Assembly: GCA_029865385.1 (NCBI GenBank)
Contig: JAOUGX010000003.1
Coordinates: 1-64,000, forward strand
DNA: 64,000 nucleotides
From: Gammaproteobacteria bacterium
Lineage (GTDB): Bacteria; Pseudomonadota; Gammaproteobacteria; Steroidobacterales; Woeseiaceae
Direction of reading: 5' to 3'
Shown here in pieces: positions 211-27,079 of the stretch. The notes beneath the pieces are model-generated. The model saw only the letters and a program-made list of their open reading frames with translations, made no database searches and was not told the DNA's origin. The position numbers and the translations under genes were made by a program. Position 1 is the stretch's first letter. Every line of letters starts with the position of its first letter.

Positions 211-245
211 AACAAAAAGGGCCACCGTTGGTGACCCTTTTTTTT
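211..245 (-). terminator. Terminator hairpin, probably the native tRNA-Arg terminator
   Basis: A stem (219-226 with 230-237, one mismatch, loop GTT) is flanked by a run of A on one side and eight T on the other, so it could work in both directions. On the minus strand it directly follows the displaced tRNA-Arg 3' half and its encoded CCA at 248-250. It was therefore probably the terminator of the tRNA gene before the element inserted. Confidence 0.6.
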
Positions 246-249
246 AGTG

Positions 250-292
250 GCGCGCCCGGAGAGATTCGAACTCCCGACCACCTGGTTCGAAG
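250..292 (-). repeat. Left attachment site: displaced 3' half of tRNA-Arg
   Basis: This 43-bp segment is identical to 8459-8501. It corresponds to the tRNA-Arg from the anticodon loop to the discriminator, and here the neighbouring bases 248-250 still encode CCA. A tRNA 3' half at one end, with an intact tRNA next to a tyrosine integrase at the other, is the classic layout of an integrative element. By this reading the element covers about 8.2 kb. The stretch from 293 to 508 shows nothing else recognisable. Confidence 0.88.
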
Positions 293-508
293 GCGTATAC
301 GTTACGAACCGTTTTCTTTTAAATCAGTAAGTTGGATGGCCCGCCCTCTTCCGTTTTGCCGTCAAACGCCGCTAAGATCCGCGAATCGCCGCCTCAACGC
401 TACGTTTTAGTCGTGGCCCCTAGGCTGAACCCAACAAGACCTTTCATGTGTTTTGCGAGACGAGAAAGTTGCATGATTTGGTCGTCATGAGCCGGTTTCT
501 CGACAAAT

Positions 509-3286
509 CTATTCGCCGGTTGAGTTGAAGCGATCGCCAGAGTCGATCGGCACAGCACCCTGTCCTTGGTCATGCGGCACGCCAATCGTCAGAATTCCGC
601 TGCAGCTGGCTAACGTATTGGAGTCGGTCGCCTCAAACGATAAGATATAGACGCGCCCATCCCCCGTGCCCGACCTCTCCCGACGGATACTTGGCGTGTC
701 GGTACCGACGTCCACGGCATCCGGACTCGTGTCGCCATCTCCGAGTCCGTTGACGGGCTCATCCTGCTCGATTGTCGTCACAATGATATCCGCCAGTTCG
801 CCATTGGTGGCGAAAACTCCGCCAATCGAAACCGGGACCAGCTTGTGGTTGGGCGGCCAGAGTACGCTCGGCGTGGAAAATGCCGGCGTACAGTCGAGCT
901 GCGGAGGCAGGTCATCGTTCAGAATCGTCGCGACTCCAACTGCATCAATCGCCATTGCATTCGCGGACGTGCCAATAAGAGCAAGTTCGAACTGTTCGTC
1001 GGCCTCGATCTCCGTATCACCATATACGTCGATGCTGACGGACTGCGACAGCGCCAAGGTTCCGGGGGCGAAGCTCAGCTGGACTGAGCTGGATTCGTAG
1101 TCGGACGGCGCCGTCGCCGAAATATCGTTTGTCTGCAAATCGACCGTTACACTCTCGGTTGGGTGCGCCTGGTCGATGCTCACAGAGACGACGAACGGCA
1201 CGCTTCCCGCATCGCCTTCCAGTTCCGCGACGTCGCCTACCGTCACCGCGACGAGGTCGTCATTCTCGATTGTCCCGGTGGCGATGGCCGACGATATCGT
1301 GGCGTTGCTGCTCGGATCGTACAGCTCCACATCAAAAGTCTCGTCAGTCTCAACGTCGAAATCACCTATGACGACTACCGGCACCGATTGCGAAAGCTCC
1401 TGCGTGCCCGCTGGAAACACGATTTCCGTGTCCGTCGCATTGTAGTCCTGCCCATCGAGGGCGCTGCCGTCTAGGGTTCGCAATCGCACCGAAACATCGT
1501 TGGCTGCGTCAGGCGCCGTGATTCTGACGTCGAAGGCAAGCTCGGTTGTTCCGGTATCCCCTTCAGCCGATGATGCGCCGCTGACCGAGATCGAGGGCAA
1601 TGTAACGACAGGATCGTCTATAACCATCCCGACATCGAACTCCCGCTCGAGTTCGGAGAAAGAGCAATTATTGTTTTCATTGCGTTCGGGAATATCCGCA
1701 TCAGCATCAGCACATGCCGCCAGGAACTGCACTGTGCCAATAAGCCCTCCCGGGATCGTGAATTGCATCTCGAGACTGTCATCGACTTGCCCGGCCGCGA
1801 GGGGCGGAACCACCCGCTCGCCGAGCGCGACTGCTGTACTGACGTCGATCAGATCGGAATCCGAGATGAAGTACCGCGTGGTGGTCGTTGACGACACGTC
1901 CTGTGTACCGACATTCGATGTCCTGTCGGAAACGTAGATCGTGTCTCCCGATCCGGCAAGGATCACCGGCGGCACGAACGCCGGTACGACGAGGTCAGCG
2001 TCGGCTGTCCACTCTACCTCCAGCAACGCGAGTCGCGGGTACACCTCGAAGTCGCGCTCAACTACTTCGATGACGTCGAGGCCCGTGTTGTTGCCAACGT
2101 AGCCGAAGGTCTTGGGCCCGGTTGCATCGAACTGAACGAGTACGCCAGGCAACAACTGGTCGGCGTTGGCGCAGGGACGGTCCTGAACACACCGAACCAG
2201 CACATTCAGGCTGCCAAGTGGCGGATTATCTTCGAGCGCGCTGTTGTAATACTCCATAGTGAGAGTGAACGTGCTGTCCCGTTCCTGGGTCGCCCCCAGT
2301 GGCGATGCAGTGAACACCGGAATATATGTATTGCGAAGATTCGGCACACGCTCGATCAACCACTCGACATTGAGTACGACAAGGTCACGAAACGCCTGGT
2401 TCGCTGACGACGCCGGGGCGGCCTGGATCAGGTCGAGCATGGCCTCCAGCTCCGCAATTGCAAGCCCATTGTTCCCAATGAACACTTCGTCACGCGCAGT
2501 GCCGAGGTGTGCTTCGAGGTCGTCGACGAGCACTGCATCCGTGGCCCAGCCGAGGGCCTGCGCAGTGCGCATATCGGTCGAAATCCGCGAATAGTGCGGA
2601 AATCCGCCAACCGCAACTTCCGCAGGCCCGAGTGCAAATGACGTGACTGAGATTGAGCGACGCACATTGGCCGCATCTTCGAGTTCCTGATCGGTGACAT
2701 CGTCATGATTGTCCACGACGAGGACCCAGAATGGGGTCAATGAAACAGCACGAATGGTGGGCGGCCGGTCGCTTCGGATGATAAATTCATTGATGGAATC
2801 ACCCGGTCCTATCGAGACGGAATCGTCGGCCGCGGAGAACATGACGTTGCCTTTGATGTTGATGCCGCCGTTCCAGCCCGTGGGGGCCGCCTGGCCCACA
2901 ACGATAACCTCGTTCCCCTCCAACCCATCGAACGGGGCGAACAAGTCGGCCTCTTCTTCCATCGACAGGCTCGCGGTCCCACCTTGGATCGGGTAAGTGC
3001 GATCGACTGATGGGCCGAAGTTATCGCCTGCGCGCTCGGGCGCCGATACGTCGACCTGAAACAGGTAAATCTCACCAACAGCCGTGGCCGGGCTGGTAAT
3101 CGTATAGCGATATTCCGTCTCACCACCGAACAATGGCACGGTCAGGAACGTCGCCTGCGAATCCACGATCGCCCCTGTGATGTCGGGAACCGCCATTTGT
3201 CCCTGGGCTGAAGCGCTCGTGTGAATCAACAAAAGCAAAGAAAGCACACCAAGGCTCTCGGCAATACCACACGCTCGTCCTTTCAT
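509..3286 (-). CDS. Large secreted Calx-beta/CARDB repeat protein
   Basis: The 925-residue product starts with a signal peptide (hydrophobic stretch, probable cleavage after ASA near residue 28). An uncharacterised N-terminal part of roughly 400 residues is followed by a CARDB-like module around 430-545 that ends in NENNN. Two Calx-beta repeats follow (about 555-665 and 670-785), each closing with an acidic xxxNDD motif. The last 130 residues contain LWPPNHKLVPV, typical of a small domain on secreted bacterial proteins. No sortase, PEP-CTERM or membrane anchor is visible at the C-terminus. It is the last gene of a leftward operon after the lipoprotein (12-bp gap) and is cargo of the integrative element. 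A calcium-dependent adhesion or matrix role is plausible from the family but not shown. Confidence 0.85.
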   Translation of the reverse strand: MKGRACGIAESLGVLSLLLLIHTSASAQGQMAVPDITGAIVDSQATFLTVPLFGGETEYRYTITSPATAVGEIYLFQVDVSAPERAGDNFGPSVDRTYPIQGGTASLSMEEEADLFAPFDGLEGNEVIVVGQAAPTGWNGGINIKGNVMFSAADDSVSIGPGDSINEFIIRSDRPPTIRAVSLTPFWVLVVDNHDDVTDQELEDAANVRRSISVTSFALGPAEVAVGGFPHYSRISTDMRTAQALGWATDAVLVDDLEAHLGTARDEVFIGNNGLAIAELEAMLDLIQAAPASSANQAFRDLVVLNVEWLIERVPNLRNTYIPVFTASPLGATQERDSTFTLTMEYYNSALEDNPPLGSLNVLVRCVQDRPCANADQLLPGVLVQFDATGPKTFGYVGNNTGLDVIEVVERDFEVYPRLALLEVEWTADADLVVPAFVPPVILAGSGDTIYVSDRTSNVGTQDVSSTTTTRYFISDSDLIDVSTAVALGERVVPPLAAGQVDDSLEMQFTIPGGLIGTVQFLAACADADADIPERNENNNCSFSELEREFDVGMVIDDPVVTLPSISVSGASSAEGDTGTTELAFDVRITAPDAANDVSVRLRTLDGSALDGQDYNATDTEIVFPAGTQELSQSVPVVVIGDFDVETDETFDVELYDPSSNATISSAIATGTIENDDLVAVTVGDVAELEGDAGSVPFVVSVSIDQAHPTESVTVDLQTNDISATAPSDYESSSVQLSFAPGTLALSQSVSIDVYGDTEIEADEQFELALIGTSANAMAIDAVGVATILNDDLPPQLDCTPAFSTPSVLWPPNHKLVPVSIGGVFATNGELADIIVTTIEQDEPVNGLGDGDTSPDAVDVGTDTPSIRRERSGTGDGRVYILSFEATDSNTLASCSGILTIGVPHDQGQGAVPIDSGDRFNSTGE

Positions 3287-3298
3287 TCTCGCGTCTCC

Positions 3299-3868
3299 TT
3301 ACAAGACACTTGACACGACAACGACTTTCGTAAGTCGATCGGCCGCAAAGGTCATCATTACGTCGATTGTTCCACCTTCCCACGTGGCGAGGTCAGGCAG
3401 TTCAGGGTTTGTGGTGGCAGTGAGGACTAGAGGATTGCGAGGAACTGCGCTCGGCTCTGGCTCGAATACGCGCTCTACGTCGTCCCTCGTGGAACCGATC
3501 GCGAGGCCAAACTTCATCGGAAACGCATTGCCCGTGATCTCGGTAACCATGATCCACGAGCGATCCCCGGATTCGCTCTCGCCAACCCGAAAGCGCACGC
3601 CGTCATAGTCGATCACATGCTCGTTCAGCATCGCATCACTGGTGCGATCGGGTATTGCAACGACATCGGTCGCCATTGGCGCCCCGAAACGAGCAGCTAT
3701 TAAGGCCAGCGCGTTCTGGTCAATGCCCCAGTCGCCGATCGGTGTTTCGAATGGGTCCATCGCGAACGCCTGAAGACGATGCGCTACCGTCGCTGCGGTT
3801 TCGTCGGCCGTTGAGGCGCCGCCGCAAGCGACGAGGAAAGCAAGGACTACGAGTGCATAGAGTCTCAT
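3299..3868 (-). CDS. Hypothetical lipoprotein
   Basis: I start the gene at the Met of MRLYALVVLAFLVACGG, because it gives a clean lipoprotein signal with lipobox LVAC; an in-frame Met seven codons upstream would place charged residues before it. The mature part of about 170 residues has no motif I recognise. It lies between the zinc peptidase (7-bp gap from this start) and the Calx-beta protein on the same strand, so the three are very likely co-transcribed. The product should sit in the inner or outer membrane as a lipid-anchored periplasmic protein. Function unknown. Confidence 0.75.
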   Translation of the reverse strand: MRLYALVVLAFLVACGGASTADETAATVAHRLQAFAMDPFETPIGDWGIDQNALALIAARFGAPMATDVVAIPDRTSDAMLNEHVIDYDGVRFRVGESESGDRSWIMVTEITGNAFPMKFGLAIGSTRDDVERVFEPEPSAVPRNPLVLTATTNPELPDLATWEGGTIDVMMTFAADRLTKVVVVSSVL

Positions 3869-3875
3869 CGTCTCG

Positions 3876-4970
3876 CTACGGGATGACAATCGGTGTTACA
3901 TAACCGCTCGGCCGCTTCATGGTCGTAATGTCGATATGATAGTTGCCGGGATCACTTGGAAATCCCGAACTTGCAGTCTCACACAACAGGGCGGACGAGC
4001 TGTTCGGATCTGGATTCAGCGGGTTGTCGCGCAAGATTGTGTCCACGGCAGTTTGCACAGCAAAATAGTTGTCGCAGCGCTGGCCGCCCGGCTTGTTGAC
4101 GTCTATGTCCAGTCCTTCGCGATGAGAAGAATGGCCGAAGCCCTTTTCCCAGGGAAACAGATCCGGCCGAACCTCGAATATCCCGCCGAGGGGCAAGCTA
4201 ATGTCGTTGTAGGAGATGAGGCTACCGGTGTTGTTCTTGTACGTTCTGCCGATTGCGCGTAGCGCCCAGACCGCCCGCTCCTGCGCCGAATATGAATCAT
4301 CATCGGTATGCCATTGGTCACCGTTGCGACCCTTGTCATAATACAAAATGCCATCGTCAGGTAGCTGCCTCAGGTCCGGAAACTTTACCTCGGCAATTCC
4401 GTCCGCCTTGATCGCGTCCCAAAACTGAAGAACGCCGTTACCAAAGGTCACAAACTTCCTTCCAACTGCCGGCAACATTGTGGATTCGAACTTGTAGTAA
4501 CCACCGATGTGCGGAACGGTCCAGCGAAATCCGTCAAAGAGCCCTGTTGAGCTTGGCTCATCCGTGACCGTAAGGTCGTTCCCGTCAGTGTCGGAGAAAT
4601 ACCGTACTTTTGTGCCCGCATAGATCACGGGCCGGCTCAACAAATCATGGATGTGACCGCCATGCCCGCAAGTCAACGTATCGACGGAACGGTTGGCACC
4701 GTATACGCAGTCATTCGTCACACCATTGATGACAAGCGGATCCGTGCTGGGCAGGAGCGCGAACGAGACAGTACAGACGTTGAGCAGGCGGCCTGTGTGT
4801 CCGCTATAACAAAGCCAGCCACGGGTCACCTCATTCTGGACGCTCTTCAACTCGTTCGATGGTTGAGCCGAGACGGTCCAGGTCCTGGACAAAGTCACAC
4901 CTTGTGCCGTGGAGTCCAATGACGCAGACAAAGCCAATGAGAATAGAAAAAACTTTGATATGGACTTCAT
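3876..4970 (-). CDS. Secreted LAS-type zinc peptidase (MepA/M15-like)
   Basis: The 364-residue product has an N-terminal signal peptide (cleavage after STA, near residue 22). In its last quarter it carries GHSSHREGLDIDV, matching the HxxxxxxD zinc-binding motif of LAS peptidases (M15 D,D-carboxypeptidases and M74 murein endopeptidases). The second LAS motif, normally HxH, appears as YHIDIT, so the final residue is Asp rather than His; either Asp is used or the site is altered. Several Cys residues suggest disulphides in the periplasm. The likely substrate is peptidoglycan, by family only. It is the first gene of the three-gene cargo operon of the integrative element. Confidence 0.75.
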   Translation of the reverse strand: MKSISKFFLFSLALSASLDSTAQGVTLSRTWTVSAQPSNELKSVQNEVTRGWLCYSGHTGRLLNVCTVSFALLPSTDPLVINGVTNDCVYGANRSVDTLTCGHGGHIHDLLSRPVIYAGTKVRYFSDTDGNDLTVTDEPSSTGLFDGFRWTVPHIGGYYKFESTMLPAVGRKFVTFGNGVLQFWDAIKADGIAEVKFPDLRQLPDDGILYYDKGRNGDQWHTDDDSYSAQERAVWALRAIGRTYKNNTGSLISYNDISLPLGGIFEVRPDLFPWEKGFGHSSHREGLDIDVNKPGGQRCDNYFAVQTAVDTILRDNPLNPDPNSSSALLCETASSGFPSDPGNYHIDITTMKRPSGYVTPIVIP

Positions 4971-5057: not shown

Positions 5058-5333
5058 TTGCCGTCAAATCTGGTCCTTTTAACCCATGATTTTGCCGGGC
5101 GAACGAGGGAGCCGTTGAACGCCATTGAGCGGGGTCAGTGCATGCCTTCGCTGGAAATCGCGCATCGTATTGCCAACGCGTTGGATTGCAGTTTGGACGA
5201 TGTGTTTCTTTGCGAATCCGAATCTCCCGCGAACAACGATGGCGACGGCCAGATAGCGATCACGGTCCGTACCGACGATGAACCGGAATGGTGGAGATCC
5301 GACGACGTCAGCCGCGTCACTACCAGAGCGTAG
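5058..5333 (+). pseudogene. Truncated XRE-family regulator
   Basis: Residues about 8-45 match the second half of an XRE/Cro helix-turn-helix domain: TREPLNAIERG, then PSLEIAHRIANAL and SLDDVF. The first helix and the usual Met are missing. The available ATG falls in the middle of the domain, and the upstream bases show no in-frame remainder with a start. A 40-residue acidic tail follows. It is probably the remnant of an element-borne regulator, divergent from the cargo operon. If a non-standard upstream start exists it could still be functional. Confidence 0.5.
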
Positions 5334-6252: not shown

Positions 6253-7119
6253 ATGAAGGACCTGAACTACCAGTTGATGAAACTCTGTAAGGCAAATCGG
6301 GATGGAAGCTACTCCACCCAGGCGACACGATCGAGGATTCTCGATCTGACCGCCAATCAGTTGCACGAGCTGGGTTACAAACACATGCAGGCGAGATCCT
6401 TGAAACCAAAACATGTCGATGCGCTCGTCTCCCGGTGGAAAGATCAGAGCATCAGCGTCGGTACGTTCAAGAATCGATTATCGGCGCTCCGATGGTGGGC
6501 GAATAAAGTCGGCAAGGCCGACATTGTAGCGAGGGACAACAAAGCCTACGACATCGGCAATCGCCGCTACGTTGGCGACGAATCGAAAGCCAAATTGCTC
6601 GACGACAAGCAACTGGAAAAAATCGCCGACGAGCACGTTCGCTTAAGCCTCCGACTGCAGTCAGCTTTCGGTCTGCGGCGCGAGGAGGCGATCAAGTTCT
6701 CACCCAGCTATGCGATCAAGGACGATCACATCAAGCTCAAAGCCAGCTGGACCAAGGGCGGACGTATGCGAACCGTGCCAATCCGGAACGACGAGCAACG
6801 GCGACTACTCGACGATGTCAGGAAACTCGCCAAGGGCGGCGCGCTGATTCCGCCCGAACGCAACTACGTGGAACAGCGCAATCGCTACGATCGGCAGGTC
6901 CGCGATGCAGGGATCAAGAATCCCCACGGGCTCCGGCACGCGTACGCGCAAGTGCGCTACGAAGAGCTAACCGGTTGGAAGGCAGCGCTGGCCGGCGGCC
7001 CAGTATCGAACTCACTTAATTCAGAGCAACGCGCGCTCGATGAGAAAGCGCGCGCCGTGATCTCGAGAGAACTCGGACACGACCGCACATCGATTACTCA
7101 AACCTACCTCGGAAAATAG
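6253..7119 (+). CDS. Tyrosine recombinase, integrase-domain (Integrase_1) type
   Basis: The 288-residue protein has an N-terminal SAM-like DNA-binding half (about 1-110) and a catalytic half. The tyrosine-recombinase residues are readable: Arg in GLRREEA, Lys in WTKGGR, HGLRH, the second His in LGHDR, and the nucleophile Tyr in TQTYLGK at the very C-terminus. This type is common on integrative elements of Pseudomonas and relatives, usually in addition to the main integrase. Here it lies 32 bp upstream of the excisionase-like gene in the same direction. It may assist excision, or it may be a passenger. Confidence 0.88.
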   Translation: MKDLNYQLMKLCKANRDGSYSTQATRSRILDLTANQLHELGYKHMQARSLKPKHVDALVSRWKDQSISVGTFKNRLSALRWWANKVGKADIVARDNKAYDIGNRRYVGDESKAKLLDDKQLEKIADEHVRLSLRLQSAFGLRREEAIKFSPSYAIKDDHIKLKASWTKGGRMRTVPIRNDEQRRLLDDVRKLAKGGALIPPERNYVEQRNRYDRQVRDAGIKNPHGLRHAYAQVRYEELTGWKAALAGGPVSNSLNSEQRALDEKARAVISRELGHDRTSITQTYLGK

Positions 7120-7151
7120 ACGCATGAATTACGTCCCAGGCTCAGAACATC

Positions 7152-7481
7152 ATGGCCGATCTCAATGACTCTCATGCCTTCGCCGATATTCAGCCGCGCT
7201 GCCTCTCCCGCGAGCAGGCCGCACGCTATCTCGCCATCGGCAGAACCTTGCTCACGCGCGTCGGCCCGCCGCCGGTTCGGCTGGGACGACGACTGGTCTA
7301 CGACCGGGTTGACCTCGACCGCTGGCTCGACGAGACTAAGTCTCGAGGGCGGGCCATAAAGGAGGATTTATGGCCCGAGAAAAAGGACTCTACAGGAGGA
7401 AGGACTCACCGTACTGGTGGGTCGACGTTGTCCTCTCAGACGGACGCCGAATATGTCAAAGCACTCGGCTTAAGGTCTTAG
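7152..7481 (+). CDS. Excisionase-like helix-turn-helix protein
   Basis: Residues about 15-60 form a MerR/AlpA-like winged-helix segment (LSREQAARYLAI, then VRLGRRLVYDRVDLDRWLDE), the pattern of small DNA-binding excisionases and helix-turn-helix_17 proteins. The 109-residue frame overlaps the start of the following integrase by 112 bp, and the integrase has its own strong Shine-Dalgarno inside this gene. The C-terminal 35 residues are low complexity and may be only a by-product of the overlap. The position next to the integrase fits a directionality factor or local regulator. Confidence 0.75.
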   Translation: MADLNDSHAFADIQPRCLSREQAARYLAIGRTLLTRVGPPPVRLGRRLVYDRVDLDRWLDETKSRGRAIKEDLWPEKKDSTGGRTHRTGGSTLSSQTDAEYVKALGLRS

Positions 7482-8413
7482 CGGACGCTGAAGAGTATCT
7501 AGTACGCCTGAAGGCTGAAGCCTACGAGGCTGCCCGAACCGGAATGCCGGTTGAGCACAATTGGCAGGATGCGGTCGTCCAGTATCTTGAAGACAGCGTT
7601 GATAAACGCAGTCTTGTTGACGACAAAGCGCACCTCCAGAAACTCGACCCGTATCTCCGGGACAAACGGCTGGTGGACATCAACATGAATGCCCTGAGGC
7701 CGTTTGTCCGGCATCGAAAGCAGATAGATGGAGTGGCTAACTCGACCATCAATCGTGCTCTCGAAGTCGTTCGACGCATTCTCTACCTGGCTCGTGATGA
7801 CTGGGGATGGATCACGCGGGTTCCTAAAATCCGCATGCTAAAGGAACCCAGGCGTCTCGTACGTTTTCTCACGAACGAGGAAGCGGTTCGGCTGATCGAG
7901 GCACTGCCCGAGCATTTGGTACCCGTGGTGCAATTTGCTCTGGCAACCGGCTGCAGGATGACGGAAATCCTTAGGCTGGAATGGCGCCGCGTTGATTTCG
8001 ATCGGCGGGTGTCCTGGCTGGATCCGGGCACGACAAAGAACGGAGACGGCCGCGGTATTCCCCTGAACCGCGACGCTGTCCTTGCGCTGAGAGGTGTTCA
8101 AGGGCAGCACAATCGGTGGTGCTTTACCTATCAGGGGAAACGCATGGAGAAAGTCGGCTCGGCCTGGAAACGCTCATTGAAGCGTGCAGGAATCGAGAAA
8201 TTTCGGTTCCACGACTTGCGCCATTCCTGGGCAAGTTGGCACGTGATGAATGGCACGACCCTGCAAGAGCTGATGGAGCTAGGAGGTTGGAAGTCGTACG
8301 AGATGGTGTTGCGGTACGCGCACTTGGCGCCGGAACATTTGTCGAATGCGGCGGCGAGAATCGAACGGCGCTTGGGTATCGTAGAAAACGACTCTACGAT
8401 TTCTCTACGTTAG
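7370..8413 (+). CDS. Site-specific tyrosine integrase of the tRNA-Arg element
   Basis: The 347-residue protein has an N-terminal arm-type segment (YWWVDVVLSDGRR), a SAM-like core-binding domain (about 65-150) and a catalytic domain. Catalytic residues are Arg in GCRMTEIL, Lys in TTKNGDGRG, HDLRHSWASW, GGW (Trp at the second-His position, as often seen) and Tyr in RYAHL. The ATG follows a strong AAAGGAGGATTT. It ends 46 bp from the tRNA-Arg whose 3' half is duplicated at 250-292, so this is very likely the enzyme that inserted the element. A hairpin terminator follows directly. Confidence 0.93.
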   Translation: MAREKGLYRRKDSPYWWVDVVLSDGRRICQSTRLKVLADAEEYLVRLKAEAYEAARTGMPVEHNWQDAVVQYLEDSVDKRSLVDDKAHLQKLDPYLRDKRLVDINMNALRPFVRHRKQIDGVANSTINRALEVVRRILYLARDDWGWITRVPKIRMLKEPRRLVRFLTNEEAVRLIEALPEHLVPVVQFALATGCRMTEILRLEWRRVDFDRRVSWLDPGTTKNGDGRGIPLNRDAVLALRGVQGQHNRWCFTYQGKRMEKVGSAWKRSLKRAGIEKFRFHDLRHSWASWHVMNGTTLQELMELGGWKSYEMVLRYAHLAPEHLSNAAARIERRLGIVENDSTISLR

Positions 8414-8458: not shown

Positions 8459-8501
8459 GCGCGCCCGGAGAGATTCGAACTCCCGACCACCTGGTTCGAA
8501 G
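8459..8501 (-). repeat. Right attachment site, inside the intact tRNA-Arg
   Basis: This is the second copy of the 43-bp direct repeat found at 250-292. It spans the tRNA-Arg from position 33 (anticodon loop) to the discriminator base plus one. By the usual logic this copy was brought by the element and restores the tRNA, while the original 3' half was pushed to the left end. The base triplet after the discriminator reads CAT here instead of CCA. Confidence 0.88.
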
Positions 8502-8533
8502 CCAGATACTCTATCCAACTGAGCTACGGGCGC
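8460..8533 (-). tRNA. tRNA-Arg(UCG)
   Basis: The minus strand folds as a complete tRNA: acceptor GCGCCCG with CGGGCGC, D-arm starting GCTCAGTTGGATAGAG, anticodon stem TCTGG/CCAGG with loop CTTCGAA, and T-arm GGGAGTTCGAATCTCTC. The anticodon TCG (8499-8497) reads CGA arginine codons. The CCA end is not encoded; the downstream bases are CAT. It is the integration site of the element to its left, and its 5' end is partly duplicated at 8732-8763. Confidence 0.95.
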
Positions 8534-8763
8534 ATTGTTCGGTACTGCGTGAGACAAATCATGTTGTCTCGATGTGGCAGCGCTTCGCGCTGCACGATAC
8601 TCGCCTCGACACTGCGTGTCTCGGCCCCGGCCACTCGCTAGTGGTAGTGGCCTCACCTCCGTATCACCTTCGATGCTAAAGGTCAGTCCGCGATCACCAG
8701 TTAGGTACTTTACATCAACATTTGCGGACTGGAGCTACGGGCGCATTGTTCGGTACTGCGTGA
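8521..8763 (-). repeat. 32-bp direct repeat of tRNA-Arg 5' end and upstream flank
   Basis: The 32 bases at 8521-8552 recur exactly at 8732-8763. Read on the minus strand, each copy carries the flank upstream of the tRNA (TCACGCAGTACCGAACAAT) and the first 13 bases of the tRNA itself. The copies bracket about 180 bp with no gene. An extra tRNA 5' fragment upstream of an intact tRNA suggests an additional insertion or duplication at this site. The minus-strand tRNA promoter must lie in or just beyond this interval. Confidence 0.7.
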
Positions 8764-8770
8764 ATCGCTG

Positions 8771-8950
8771 TCGCCTGCAATGCAGGCTCCTACAGGAAAG
8801 TCGTTCCTGTCTCGATCCGGTCGCCTGCAATGCAGGCTCCTACAAGAAAGTCGTTCCTGTCTCGATCCGGTCGCCTGCAATGCAGGCTCCTACAGGAAAG
8901 TCGTTCCTGTCTCGATCCGGTCGCCTGCAATGCAGGCTCCTACAAATACG
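8771..8950. repeat. REP-containing tandem array, 50-bp unit
   Basis: Three 50-bp units (8771-8820, 8821-8870, 8871-8920) differ by a single base, and a fourth breaks off after about 25 bases. Each begins with the palindrome GCCTGCAATGCAGGC followed by TCCTACA, the core of a REP element of the TGTAGGAGCCTGC type. The rest of the unit (AGTCGTTCCTGTCTCGATCCGG) is constant, so these are not spacers. No REP-associated transposase gene is present in the window. The remaining bases to 9009 show nothing else. Confidence 0.85.
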
Positions 8951-9009: not shown

Positions 9010-9606
9010 TTATTGGGTCAGGATGAAGCGATAGGGACGGGCCGCGTCCTCGCCGGCATAGTCAATCCCGATGCGGGGTCCGGCCTTGATTTTGCTGACG
9101 TCGGGCACGATGCCGGTATCCTCGATCCAGATGCGCTCGCTCCAGAGGCTCTCTCCGGTCAGCCGGGTCGTGATGCCCAGCGCCTTCGACAAAGAACCGG
9201 GGCCGCCCAGCAATGCTTTGTCCACGCTCTTTTTTTGACGGCGCCGCAGCATCAGCATTTCGCCTTCTGCCGGGATGGCCGCTCGGATCAACACGGCATG
9301 CGGTATGCCTTCGACATTGGTAACGACGTTGAACAGGTGATGGATTCCGTAGCAAAGGTACACGTAGGCGGTCCCGCCGTCGGCATACATCGGTTCGGTC
9401 CTTGCGGTCCTTCGTCCGCCGTAGGCATGGCTCGCCCGGTCGTCGATGCCGGCATAGGCTTCTGTCTCAGTGATGATAGCCTTGGTGACGCCGCCGTTGA
9501 GCTTCGTGCACAGTCTCTTGCCCAGCAGCTCGCGACTCACGGCGACCACATCCGGGCGCGCGTAAAAAGCTTTTGGCAGAGCTGCCAAAATTGTGCGCTC
9601 CTTCAT
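9010..9606 (-). CDS. DNA-3-methyladenine glycosylase (AAG/MPG family)
   Basis: The product removes alkylated purines, such as 3-methyladenine and hypoxanthine, in base excision repair. I start it at MKERTILAALPKAFY, which gives the usual length of about 198 residues; a 36-residue upstream extension has no family support. Family landmarks are ARELLGK-like SRELLGKRL, ITETEAYAGIDDRASHAYGG with its catalytic Glu region, TEPMYADGGTAYVYLCYGIHH, and LLGGPGSL near the C-terminus. It stands alone on the minus strand between the REP array and a bidirectional terminator. Confidence 0.92.
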   Translation of the reverse strand: MKERTILAALPKAFYARPDVVAVSRELLGKRLCTKLNGGVTKAIITETEAYAGIDDRASHAYGGRRTARTEPMYADGGTAYVYLCYGIHHLFNVVTNVEGIPHAVLIRAAIPAEGEMLMLRRRQKKSVDKALLGGPGSLSKALGITTRLTGESLWSERIWIEDTGIVPDVSKIKAGPRIGIDYAGEDAARPYRFILTQ

Positions 9607-9810
9607 ACTTTGGCTATTGGCATTGAGTCGCAACGCGGCGATACTGTCTTCGGGCCAATTGCACAAAAAGGGGGTGATCCAATGTCTAGTGAGATATCGA
9701 CTGTATCTACTCAACTGTTGGGTCTCAACCGGTTAGCGAGGCAATCCTCCTAGTCCGTTTGAAACCACGGATCACTGAGATCCTGAGGTTGATGGATACT
9801 CAATCTCACG

Positions 9811-25628: not shown

Positions 25629-25657
25629 TGTAGCAGCTTGCTCTGCAGGCTCCTACA
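25629..25657. repeat. Single REP palindrome
   Basis: The sequence begins TGTAGCAGCTTGC and ends GCAGGCTCCTACA, an imperfect palindrome of the same family as the arrays at 8771 and 26884. It lies between the lipid operon and the Tat-exported epimerase gene. Confidence 0.7.
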
Positions 25658-25716
25658 TAGTGTTGCCTAGGATATGCAATTGGCTGGCGCGTTCCACTTG
25701 GAAACGCTGATGAATG

Positions 25717-26844
25717 TCAGATGTTTTTCTGATGCCAATCCGAAAGGAGTTTTGCTTCGCTTTCCGCCGACAGGCCGGCGCGCATAGTATCCCGCCTTTC
25801 CGCCGGAAGCGTTTTCCACCAGCTCAATATGTCGCGGCACGTCTCGCGGGGCGGCCGGGTTTGCAGACCGACCATTCGGGCTCGTTCGCCGCTCACACTG
25901 GCGACGTTTTTCGAATCGCCAACCGGCGATGCCCAGATCGGGATGGACGAACCGGCAGCCAGCTCGTGCCCGGCAAGAAACTCGCCGCTGACCCAGACCG
26001 CTGTGATATCTGCGGCGGAAACGGCGACGGCGTCGTTTTTCAGATCGCCGATCGTATACGAGGCAACCGGCGTTACCGTGTTGTAGGTGCCAAAAATGTT
26101 CTTCTCGATGCAATCCACCGTGAAATTTGCAAGGTCACGCACGTCGATGATCTGGATCGGATCCGTCGGCATGCCCGGCCATAGCATTTCTCCGCCACGC
26201 TGGGTACGGACCGGCCAGTACGAGAATCGGTCGGTGCGGTCGCCCGGCCCGCAGATGTAGGTAGGGCGCAGAATGGTCAGACGATCATTGCCAATCTCGG
26301 CACTGGCACGTTTCTCGCAAAGCGCCTTCATCGGCCCGTAGGTCTCACCCGTCACCTCTTCGACCGATTCGTCCGTCATTGCAGCCAACGGCGAATTCTC
26401 TTCGTTCGCCACCGCGAAACTCTCGTAGACCGAAATCGTCGAGATATAAAGGTAATGAGAGACCGCAGACGCGAGGAGTCGCGCGGAATCCGCGACGTGC
26501 CGTGGCACGTACCCTGAATTGTCTACAACGGCATCCCACTCCCGTCCCTTGAGCACATCGAGGCCGCCATCCCTGTCGCCGATCAGTGTCTCCAGATCCG
26601 GAAAAATGTCCTCGTTCGTGCGCCCGCGATTGAATAGCGAGACCTCGTGGCCACGGCGCAGGAACTCACTGACCATGTGCGGACCGATGTAGCCGGTTCC
26701 CCCGAGCATCAGGATGCGCAGGGATTTCGCGGAAGAGCCTTTCTCTTTGGCCGATGCGCCGGCCAGTGCGGGCAGCGCAGCACTTGCAGCGATCGCACCG
26801 CCGGCAAGTCCGGCCTTCACAAACTGTCTTCTTGATTTGTCCAC
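25717..26844 (-). CDS. Tat-exported NAD-dependent epimerase/dehydratase-like protein
   Basis: The 375-residue product opens with a twin-arginine signal (SRRQFVKAGLAGGAIAAS, cleavage near ALAGA), so it should be exported folded. The mature part is an extended SDR: ILMLGGTGYIGPHMV (GxxGxxG), YISTISVYES, YGPMKALCE, LRPTYICGPGDRTDR and RDLANFTVDC. YGPMK stands where YxxxK is expected, so the catalytic pair is present. A nucleotide-cofactor enzyme in the periplasm is unusual; a bound cofactor, as in glucose-fructose oxidoreductase, would be needed. It stands alone between REP elements. Confidence 0.85.
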   Translation of the reverse strand: MDKSRRQFVKAGLAGGAIAASAALPALAGASAKEKGSSAKSLRILMLGGTGYIGPHMVSEFLRRGHEVSLFNRGRTNEDIFPDLETLIGDRDGGLDVLKGREWDAVVDNSGYVPRHVADSARLLASAVSHYLYISTISVYESFAVANEENSPLAAMTDESVEEVTGETYGPMKALCEKRASAEIGNDRLTILRPTYICGPGDRTDRFSYWPVRTQRGGEMLWPGMPTDPIQIIDVRDLANFTVDCIEKNIFGTYNTVTPVASYTIGDLKNDAVAVSAADITAVWVSGEFLAGHELAAGSSIPIWASPVGDSKNVASVSGERARMVGLQTRPPRETCRDILSWWKTLPAERRDTMRAGLSAESEAKLLSDWHQKNI

Positions 26845-26883
26845 GAGCAGTCCTTGTCAGGCGAAAACGTCGGACTTGAAATG

Positions 26884-27079
26884 TCGCCTGCGGTGCAGGC
26901 TCCTACAAAAAATTCACTGCGATTTCCCGGCGTGCCTTGTAGGAGCCTGCACCGCAGGCTCCCGCAAATAATTCACCGCGATTTCCCGGCGTGCCTTGTA
27001 GGAGCCTGCACCGCAGGCTCCCGCAAATAATTCACCGCGATTTCCCGGCGCGCCTTGTAGGAGCCTGCACCGCAGGCGA
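26884..27079. repeat. REP array with 59-bp period
   Basis: Four REP palindromes occur here. The first (26884-26907) is in one orientation and the next three, starting at 26938, 26997 and 27056, are inverted and spaced exactly 59 bp apart. Each reads TGTAGGAGCCTGCACCGCAGG. The segments between them (AATAATTCACCGCGATTTCCCGGCG) are almost identical, so it is a tandem duplication and not a CRISPR. It sits just downstream of korB. Confidence 0.88.

Follow-up and report, generated by a model that had tools for sequence, protein, structure and literature searches.

What is a set of genes for exported proteins doing on a small integrated island? The question arises at the beginning of contig JAOUGX010000003.1 (assembly GCA_029865385.1, a gammaproteobacterium of the family Woeseiaceae), of which positions 1 to 64,000 of the forward strand, here called the window, were analyzed as a whole. 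In this window an island at a tRNA-Arg gene carries three intact minus-strand open reading frames (ORFs) encoding an M74-like metallopeptidase (P0003), a lipoprotein (P0002) and a large protein (P0001) (Table 1), and their intergenic gaps of 7 and 12 nt suggest that they form an operon. A preliminary description of the locus had proposed surface competition, adhesion or cell-wall modification as the task of this trio, which may be regarded as plausible. Comparison with other genomes shows that two of the three genes, those for the peptidase and for the large protein (hereafter the partner), almost certainly form a conserved pair, and it is this conserved, co-diverging exported pair that is new at the locus.

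Occurrence and matched divergence of the pair

A partner gene follows the peptidase gene on the same strand in 18 of 18 loci outside the window, drawn from Gammaproteobacteria and Mariprofundales: G266 (two loci), G582, G431, G116 (three), G442 (two), G617, G719 (two), G633, G466 (two), G695, G566 and G648, several genomes thus carrying two or three pairs. The listed ORFs of the pair lie 9–12 nt apart in 10 of these loci; elsewhere they overlap, are spaced more widely or start at uncertain positions, and in the window they are separated by the lipoprotein gene. None of 11 control loci of the M74/MepA type shows a partner, although L031–L038 display only ~1–1.3 kb of downstream flank and L101–L103 more.

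Searches in both directions delimit this association. The single sequence of P0003 found no match in 98 other related genomes (its own being the one of 99) and weak matches in three other genomes (five loci) among 369 of the class; at three of these five loci the post-peptidase gene encodes an exported protein with an N-terminus resembling that of P0001, the two G266 loci being confirmed later. The N-terminus of P0001 matches the G431 partner at E 7e-9 in a single comparison; the G116 partner taken alone does not align to P0001 by BLASTP, and its link rests on the alignment and profiles. A peptidase profile matched 16 of 398 genomes of the phylum, namely the source genome, 7 of family f220 and 8 others more weakly (E 9.5e-6 to 5.0e-4), and the one of these 8 that was checked is a MepA equivalog. 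In family f220, which we take to be that of Ghiorsea, assigned by NCBI to the order Mariprofundales, 7 of 61 genomes match, one of them through a fragment at a contig end. Among the 369 class genomes peptidase profile A5 matched 8, five strongly and three weakly; both G442 loci and the third G116 locus were found with A5, which had been built without them, and all three then showed a partner. The partner profile A8 was built from 17 partners, whose own matches are by construction (G566, G648 and G332 lie outside it), and matched six of the 369 class genomes, the five with strong peptidase matches and G332, with locus numbers in the five (1, 3, 2, 1 and 2) equal to those of the peptidase. Because these five genomes supplied rows of A8, the informative part of this result is the absence of an A8 match in the other 363. 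For some Mariprofundales partners, matches to the small profile A3 are weak (3e-6, 3e-5) or lacking, and these are linked through alignment with the others.

The two proteins have also diverged in step. Distance matrices of the peptidase and of the partner domain correlate across 17 pairs, the window included, with a Mantel r of 0.93, a value reached in 0 of 20,000 permutations (highest permuted value 0.57). G566, where the partner is broken into two frames beside a contig end, and G648, where a contig end truncates the peptidase, were left out of this set; G633, with a truncated peptidase N-terminus, and G582, with an open partner reaching only to 479 aa, were kept, and the three G116 copies are near duplicates rather than independent samples. 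Both trees resolve the same three groups: short peptidases with long partners (the window, both G266 loci and G582), long peptidases with short partners (G431, G116 and G442, with G431 weakly attached in the partner tree) and a Mariprofundales type. Within the last, both trees unite G617 with the first G719 copy, the first G466 copy with the second G719 copy, and G633 with G695; the second G466 copy stands next to G633/G695, with a support of only 0.10 in the partner tree. G582 belongs to f220 (genome 88% complete, 1% contaminated) and clusters with gammaproteobacterial pairs; this points to a transfer from one class to another or else to a misplaced contig in the G582 genome.

These observations contradict, for peptidase and partner, a chance assembly of unrelated exported genes on the island, an explanation that is scarcely credible given adjacency at all 18 loci and the matched divergence. 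What it may still cover is the lipoprotein, which matched no ORF at the other pair loci and, beyond its own genome, gave a single weak match (E 8e-4) in the 99 genomes searched, the source genome included; P0002 is thus a local addition to the pair. Both G442 loci do carry a lipoprotein as third gene (L076 3269–3742 and L077 2951–3586), which by eye resembles the partner tail; P0002 did not match these lipoproteins, and the trio is therefore not called conserved. Independent, scattered occurrence in relatives, named beforehand as the outcome that would speak against a functional set, is accordingly not what peptidase and partner show; the lipoprotein stands outside their association.

The pair is patchy and accessory. 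P0003 had no match in the plasmids or phages searched, a search that covered the peptidase only, and when viral contigs were scanned for short peptide patterns, an approach mostly limited to close relatives, neither the peptidase nor partners of the G431 and G116 types nor the lipoprotein had a match. No description of such a peptidase–partner pair turned up in the open-licence full-text literature under the few terms used, which is weak evidence. Two genomes show further features of their own: the three G116 copies (L021, L078) lie within ~21 kb among duplicated genes and, by eye, transposase-like ORFs, and in G266 (L048) a tyrosine recombinase gene at 6800–7588 (Phage_integrase, E 4.8e-20) lies divergently just upstream of the pair.

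The peptidase and partner families

P0003 falls below curated scores (12.4 bits against 25 for PF03411, with E 0.12; 14 against 272 for NF006947), and its affinity emerges from the family. In a set of 14 family members, PF03411 finds 10 at E up to 1, the best of them at 6.9e-7, a profile–profile comparison with hhalign relates the family to MepA-type proteins at 96.9% over 62 columns, and a search of the PDB returned MepA at E 0.0054. All 18 peptidases examined, among them P0003, keep the HxxHx6D motif and a late histidine; in P0003 the H-x6-D and the late histidine stand in zinc-site order, as read from the sequence. The LAS-type assignment made in the preliminary description is upheld by this motif and by the family and profile matches.

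In its likeness to M74/MepA (PF03411; PDB 1tzp and 1u10), the family presents an NDxSLxxGG...HxxHx6D arrangement alignable with the MepA-type 'GDISLPQGG..GHSSHQTGLDID', the third G116 copy lacking the SLPxGG/NDxSLxxGG stretch. The two differ in that an N-terminal region, with a GGHxH motif in 12 of the 18 members by pattern match, replaces MepA's own N-terminus, and in that P0003 lacks HxH and is paired with an exported partner. At the position of HxH in MepA, P0003 reads YHID, and HxH is kept in 8 of the 18 peptidases, all in the family of Ghiorsea, as well as in the G648 fragment. Because HxH is missing and the scores lie below the cut-offs, P0003 is termed M74-like and is not filed as M74. 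MepA itself is a zinc-dependent D,D-endopeptidase (PMC6403190), and P0003 may at best work like it.

The distribution of HxH also invites another explanation, namely that catalysis has been lost in part of the family, this copy included, leaving a zinc-binding pseudo-peptidase that serves as a binding subunit. HxH is named as characteristic of MepA in PMC3927764, and its confinement to Ghiorsea's family would agree with such a loss. However, the presumed zinc ligands are kept in every peptidase examined, which would be unusual for a dead enzyme, and the same source reports that YcbK, also without HxH, altered cell appearance on expression and that VanX carries ExxH in its place (PMC3927764). 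A pseudo-peptidase is judged improbable.

The partners are 314–925 aa long and share a constant N-terminal domain without a convincing Pfam match: among 17 scanned, no Pfam family matched more than one member, and the best match was DUF2436 at E 0.0019. Their tails are of CARDB, Calx-beta, immunoglobulin (Ig)-like or PKD-like type. In P0001 the Calx-beta (E 1.5e-24) and CARDB (E 3.2e-8) domains both exceed the Pfam cut-off, as the preliminary description had it. CARDB is common to P0001 and its G266 relatives. The one of these that was aligned over its whole length, the C9 copy, is 36% identical to P0001 overall and also has in common with it the C-terminal stretch and the part that follows the N-terminal domain. 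A Pfam scan of seven other partners, one of which could be followed only as far as its open end, found no Calx-beta; in the rest the scan covered the N-terminal domain only. As far as scanned, the Calx-beta repeats would thus be a local addition in P0001, and because none was found in those seven partners, calcium-dependent binding, for which the Calx-beta protein had earlier been singled out, is unlikely to be the shared function. Calx-beta was accordingly rejected as the core function. P0001 resembles other exported Calx-beta/CARDB proteins in having both domains, and it differs in that the part shared by its family is another, N-terminal domain.

Export was judged by eye and from a hydropathy scan rather than with a trained signal-peptide predictor. 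The hydropathy maximum lies in the N-terminal segment of P0001 and P0002; in P0003 it lies at residue 62, and the N-terminus MKSISKFFLFSLALSASLDSTAQG is signal-peptide-like by inspection only. From these signal-like N-termini all three proteins are probably exported, in agreement with the preliminary description, which was also right about the coordinates and domain calls apart from the lipoprotein start. The ORF of P0002 as listed spans 3299–3889, but an internal ATG at 3868 precedes the lipobox LVAC and is probably the true start. None of the three proteins has a PADLOC match, and an antiphage system was rejected as an assignment by homology of the trio.

The tRNA-Arg island

The trio very probably sits on a tRNA-integrated island, as first supposed. 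The window begins at the contig end to its left. An exact 43-nt repeat (chance expectation 0.00) of the 3' part of tRNA-Arg encloses 8.2 kb, and an integrase gene lies beside the tRNA. Contrary to the earlier statement that the element carries only the trio, two tyrosine recombinase genes, an AlpA/excisionase-like ORF and a truncated regulator remnant are also present (Table 1). The AlpA/excisionase-like ORF has further weak matches to phrog_66 (excisionase/regulator, E 1.5e-4) and PADLOC mad1 (E 5.8e-5). Profile scans of seven island ORFs recognized no relaxase or conjugation gene.

Table 1. Coordinates of the island features and of the regions of P0001
Feature	Position	Strand	Remarks
attL, displaced copy of the tRNA-Arg 3' part	250..292	.	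Exact 43-nt repeat
Large partner protein P0001, 925 aa	509..3286	-	Pfam; N-terminus homologous to the post-peptidase gene at other loci
P0001 conserved N-terminal domain	residues ~35-190
P0001 helical region, probable	residues ~230-316		From a low-confidence structure model
P0001 CARDB	residues 430-541
P0001 Calx-beta	residues 579-676		Second repeat after ~690
P0001 C-terminal WPPNHK..VPHDQG stretch			Named by eye
Lipoprotein P0002, 189 aa	3299..3868	-	Lipobox LVAC; local addition to the pair
LAS/M74-like metallopeptidase P0003, 364 aa	3876..4970	-	GGHIH at 104; HSSHREGLDID (HxxHx6D) at 280-290; late H345; without HxH
XRE-type helix-turn-helix (HTH) regulator remnant	about 5058..5333	+	N-terminal part missing; match confined to HTH_3 profile positions 26-54 (E 1.1e-4, slightly short of cut-off)
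Tyrosine recombinase	6253..7119	+	Phage_int_SAM_2 / Integrase_1 (Pfam)
AlpA/excisionase-like HTH ORF	7152..7481	+	Overlaps next gene; weak: HTH_17 E 1.7e-4, below cut-off
Tyrosine integrase, tRNA-proximal	7370..8413	+	Phage_integrase E 6.2e-30; phrog_1 E 6.2e-60
attR inside tRNA-Arg	8459..8501	.	Ends in the anticodon loop
tRNA-Arg (TCG)	8459..8533	-	Integration target

The element resembles the small tRNA/tmRNA islands with IntY and AlpA and without autonomous-transfer genes described in PMC12595487 in its tRNA target, direct repeats, tyrosine integrase, AlpA-like ORF and lack of a recognized transfer gene. It differs from the islands presented there in its size of 8.2 kb, its two recombinases, its exported-pair cargo and, over the seven ORFs scanned, the lack of a match to RadC or YqaJ (PMC12595487).

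The same tRNA has received another insert in a related genome. In the congeneric genome G002, a tRNA-Arg(TCG) lies beside a homologue of the window gene 9010–9714 (3-methyladenine-DNA-glycosylase-like, named by eye), and a different insert of ~1.6 kb with a 52-nt direct repeat, 94% identical, occupies it (L058 4103–5772). That insert holds two genes matching PADLOC PDC-M36A, a phage-defence candidate, and no other ORF of at least 120 aa wholly inside. The different inserts in the window and in G002 mark this tRNA-Arg as a turnover site with changing cargo. Two other members of the genus (85% and 67% complete) gave only weak matches to P0006 (E 2.3e-6 and 9.8e-5). Of the island proteins scanned against viral contigs, only the integrase has relatives there (10 loci, best 70% identity); at the best of these, L106, it lies beside a stretch that by eye resembles a tRNA 3' end, with no tRNA recognized by ARAGORN and the att motif of the window absent.

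The window contains several further repeats. Identical 31-nt copies of the tRNA-end region occur at 70–100 and 236–266, 166 nt apart; the first is a third and shorter version of the att repeat and suggests an earlier insertion at this same site or a decayed element to the left. The 5' end of tRNA-Arg with its leader is exactly duplicated over 32 nt (8521–8552 and 8732–8763), and G002 has a similar duplication (57 nt, 93%). A REP-like 22-mer, GCCTGCAATGCAGGCTCCTACA, occurs in 9 copies with at most 3 mismatches at 8773–8944 and 25636–27077 (expected 0.00), four of them at 50-nt spacing. Elsewhere in the source genome, another integrase gene of 35% identity (G000, C72:8756–9778) lies near a tRNA-like match (C72:9896–9975), possibly a second island.

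Proposed function and its rivals

The reading favored here, to which we give an even chance, is that of a two-gene exported module, an M74-like peptidase and its cognate partner, carried as cargo by a minimal tRNA-Arg integrative island. Both proteins would leave the cytoplasm by their signal-like N-termini, possibly through type II secretion, and the peptidase would cut peptide cross-links of peptidoglycan, either in the cell's own wall or in that of its neighbors. The constant N-terminal domain of the partner is envisaged to bind the peptidase, which the variable Ig-like, PKD, CARDB or Calx-beta tail might then target, anchor or restrain, and in this strain P0002 may add a membrane anchor or self-protection. 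Peptidoglycan as the substrate falls somewhat short of an even chance, and the role of the partner as a targeting or control subunit is put forward tentatively. With regard to export, 12 of the 14 carriers of either gene were tested, all but G633 and G648, and 11 of them have a type II secretin that scores above the curated cut-off, as against 2 of 14 control genomes.

Two close rivals share much of this evidence. The first, self-directed remodelling of the wall or surface, for example to fit a surface layer or an appendage, would have the peptidase open the cell's own peptidoglycan and the partner act in a structural or adhesive capacity. The modular partner tails agree with such a role, as do the neighbors identified by eye, mltF-like and tadA-like genes on either side of the G431 pair and an ftsY-like gene beside the pair in G466, G617 and G695. 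The neighboring genes nevertheless vary between loci, and nearly all relatives do without the pair (among the 99 related genomes it was found in the source genome alone), so that a basic function is not indicated; overall we regard this explanation as rather unlikely. The second, an interbacterial weapon in which an exported lytic peptidase attacks neighbors while the producer is shielded by the partner or by the lipoprotein, would suit the patchy distribution, the several cognate pairs per genome, the mobile carriage in the window and the candidate phage-defence cargo at the equivalent tRNA of G002. In our judgement, however, partners with the sizes and tails found here have the look of binding or structural proteins and not that of immunity proteins, scans of the trio against Pfam, NCBIfam and PHROGs, which included no dedicated search, turned up no toxin-delivery domain, and PADLOC was equally silent. 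A weapon with immunity is considered unlikely.

Several observations weigh against the module favored here. The correlation of distances falls to 0.23 inside the long-partner group (4 pairs, 6 distances), compared with 0.99 and 0.78 for the two remaining groups, the position of the window among the long-partner pairs differs between the two trees, and physical linkage alone would also produce agreement between trees. G332 has a partner gene (L099 5527–6603) without a recognizable peptidase neighbor. The HxH motif of MepA is missing from 10 of the 18 peptidases, P0003 among them, so that peptidase activity cannot be assumed, and AlphaFold2 models were unusable (mean pLDDT 33.6 for the peptidase, 6 sequences, and 46.2 for P0001, 5 sequences), so that no fold or contact is supported structurally. 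As to export beyond the outer membrane, which the secretin results make possible, G582 is the tested carrier below the cut-off, bacteria of this kind commonly have type II secretion, and the association is unspecific. Finally, the window is the only pair locus for which an island could be shown, and in several genomes the pair sits, by eye, among housekeeping-looking genes.

A wider proposal is less probable than the module itself: matched exported pairs might constitute an undescribed family, each made up of an M74-like peptidase and of a dedicated partner, with exchangeable binding tails, that delivers and aims it. Such a family would spread between classes and would here travel on a minimal tRNA island, at a site occupied in a related genome by defence candidates; it would be a mobile system for envelope attack or remodelling outside the known toxin and secretion classes. 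What the comparison does provide is a definable pair in place of three puzzling cargo genes, together with the prediction that the partner binds the peptidase, and an exported domain, lacking any convincing match in Pfam, which in the genomes searched was nearly always found beside one enzyme family. Defence genes are carried by some small tRNA islands, and the comparison suggests that envelope-acting systems shared by Gammaproteobacteria and Mariprofundales can be the cargo of such islands as well.

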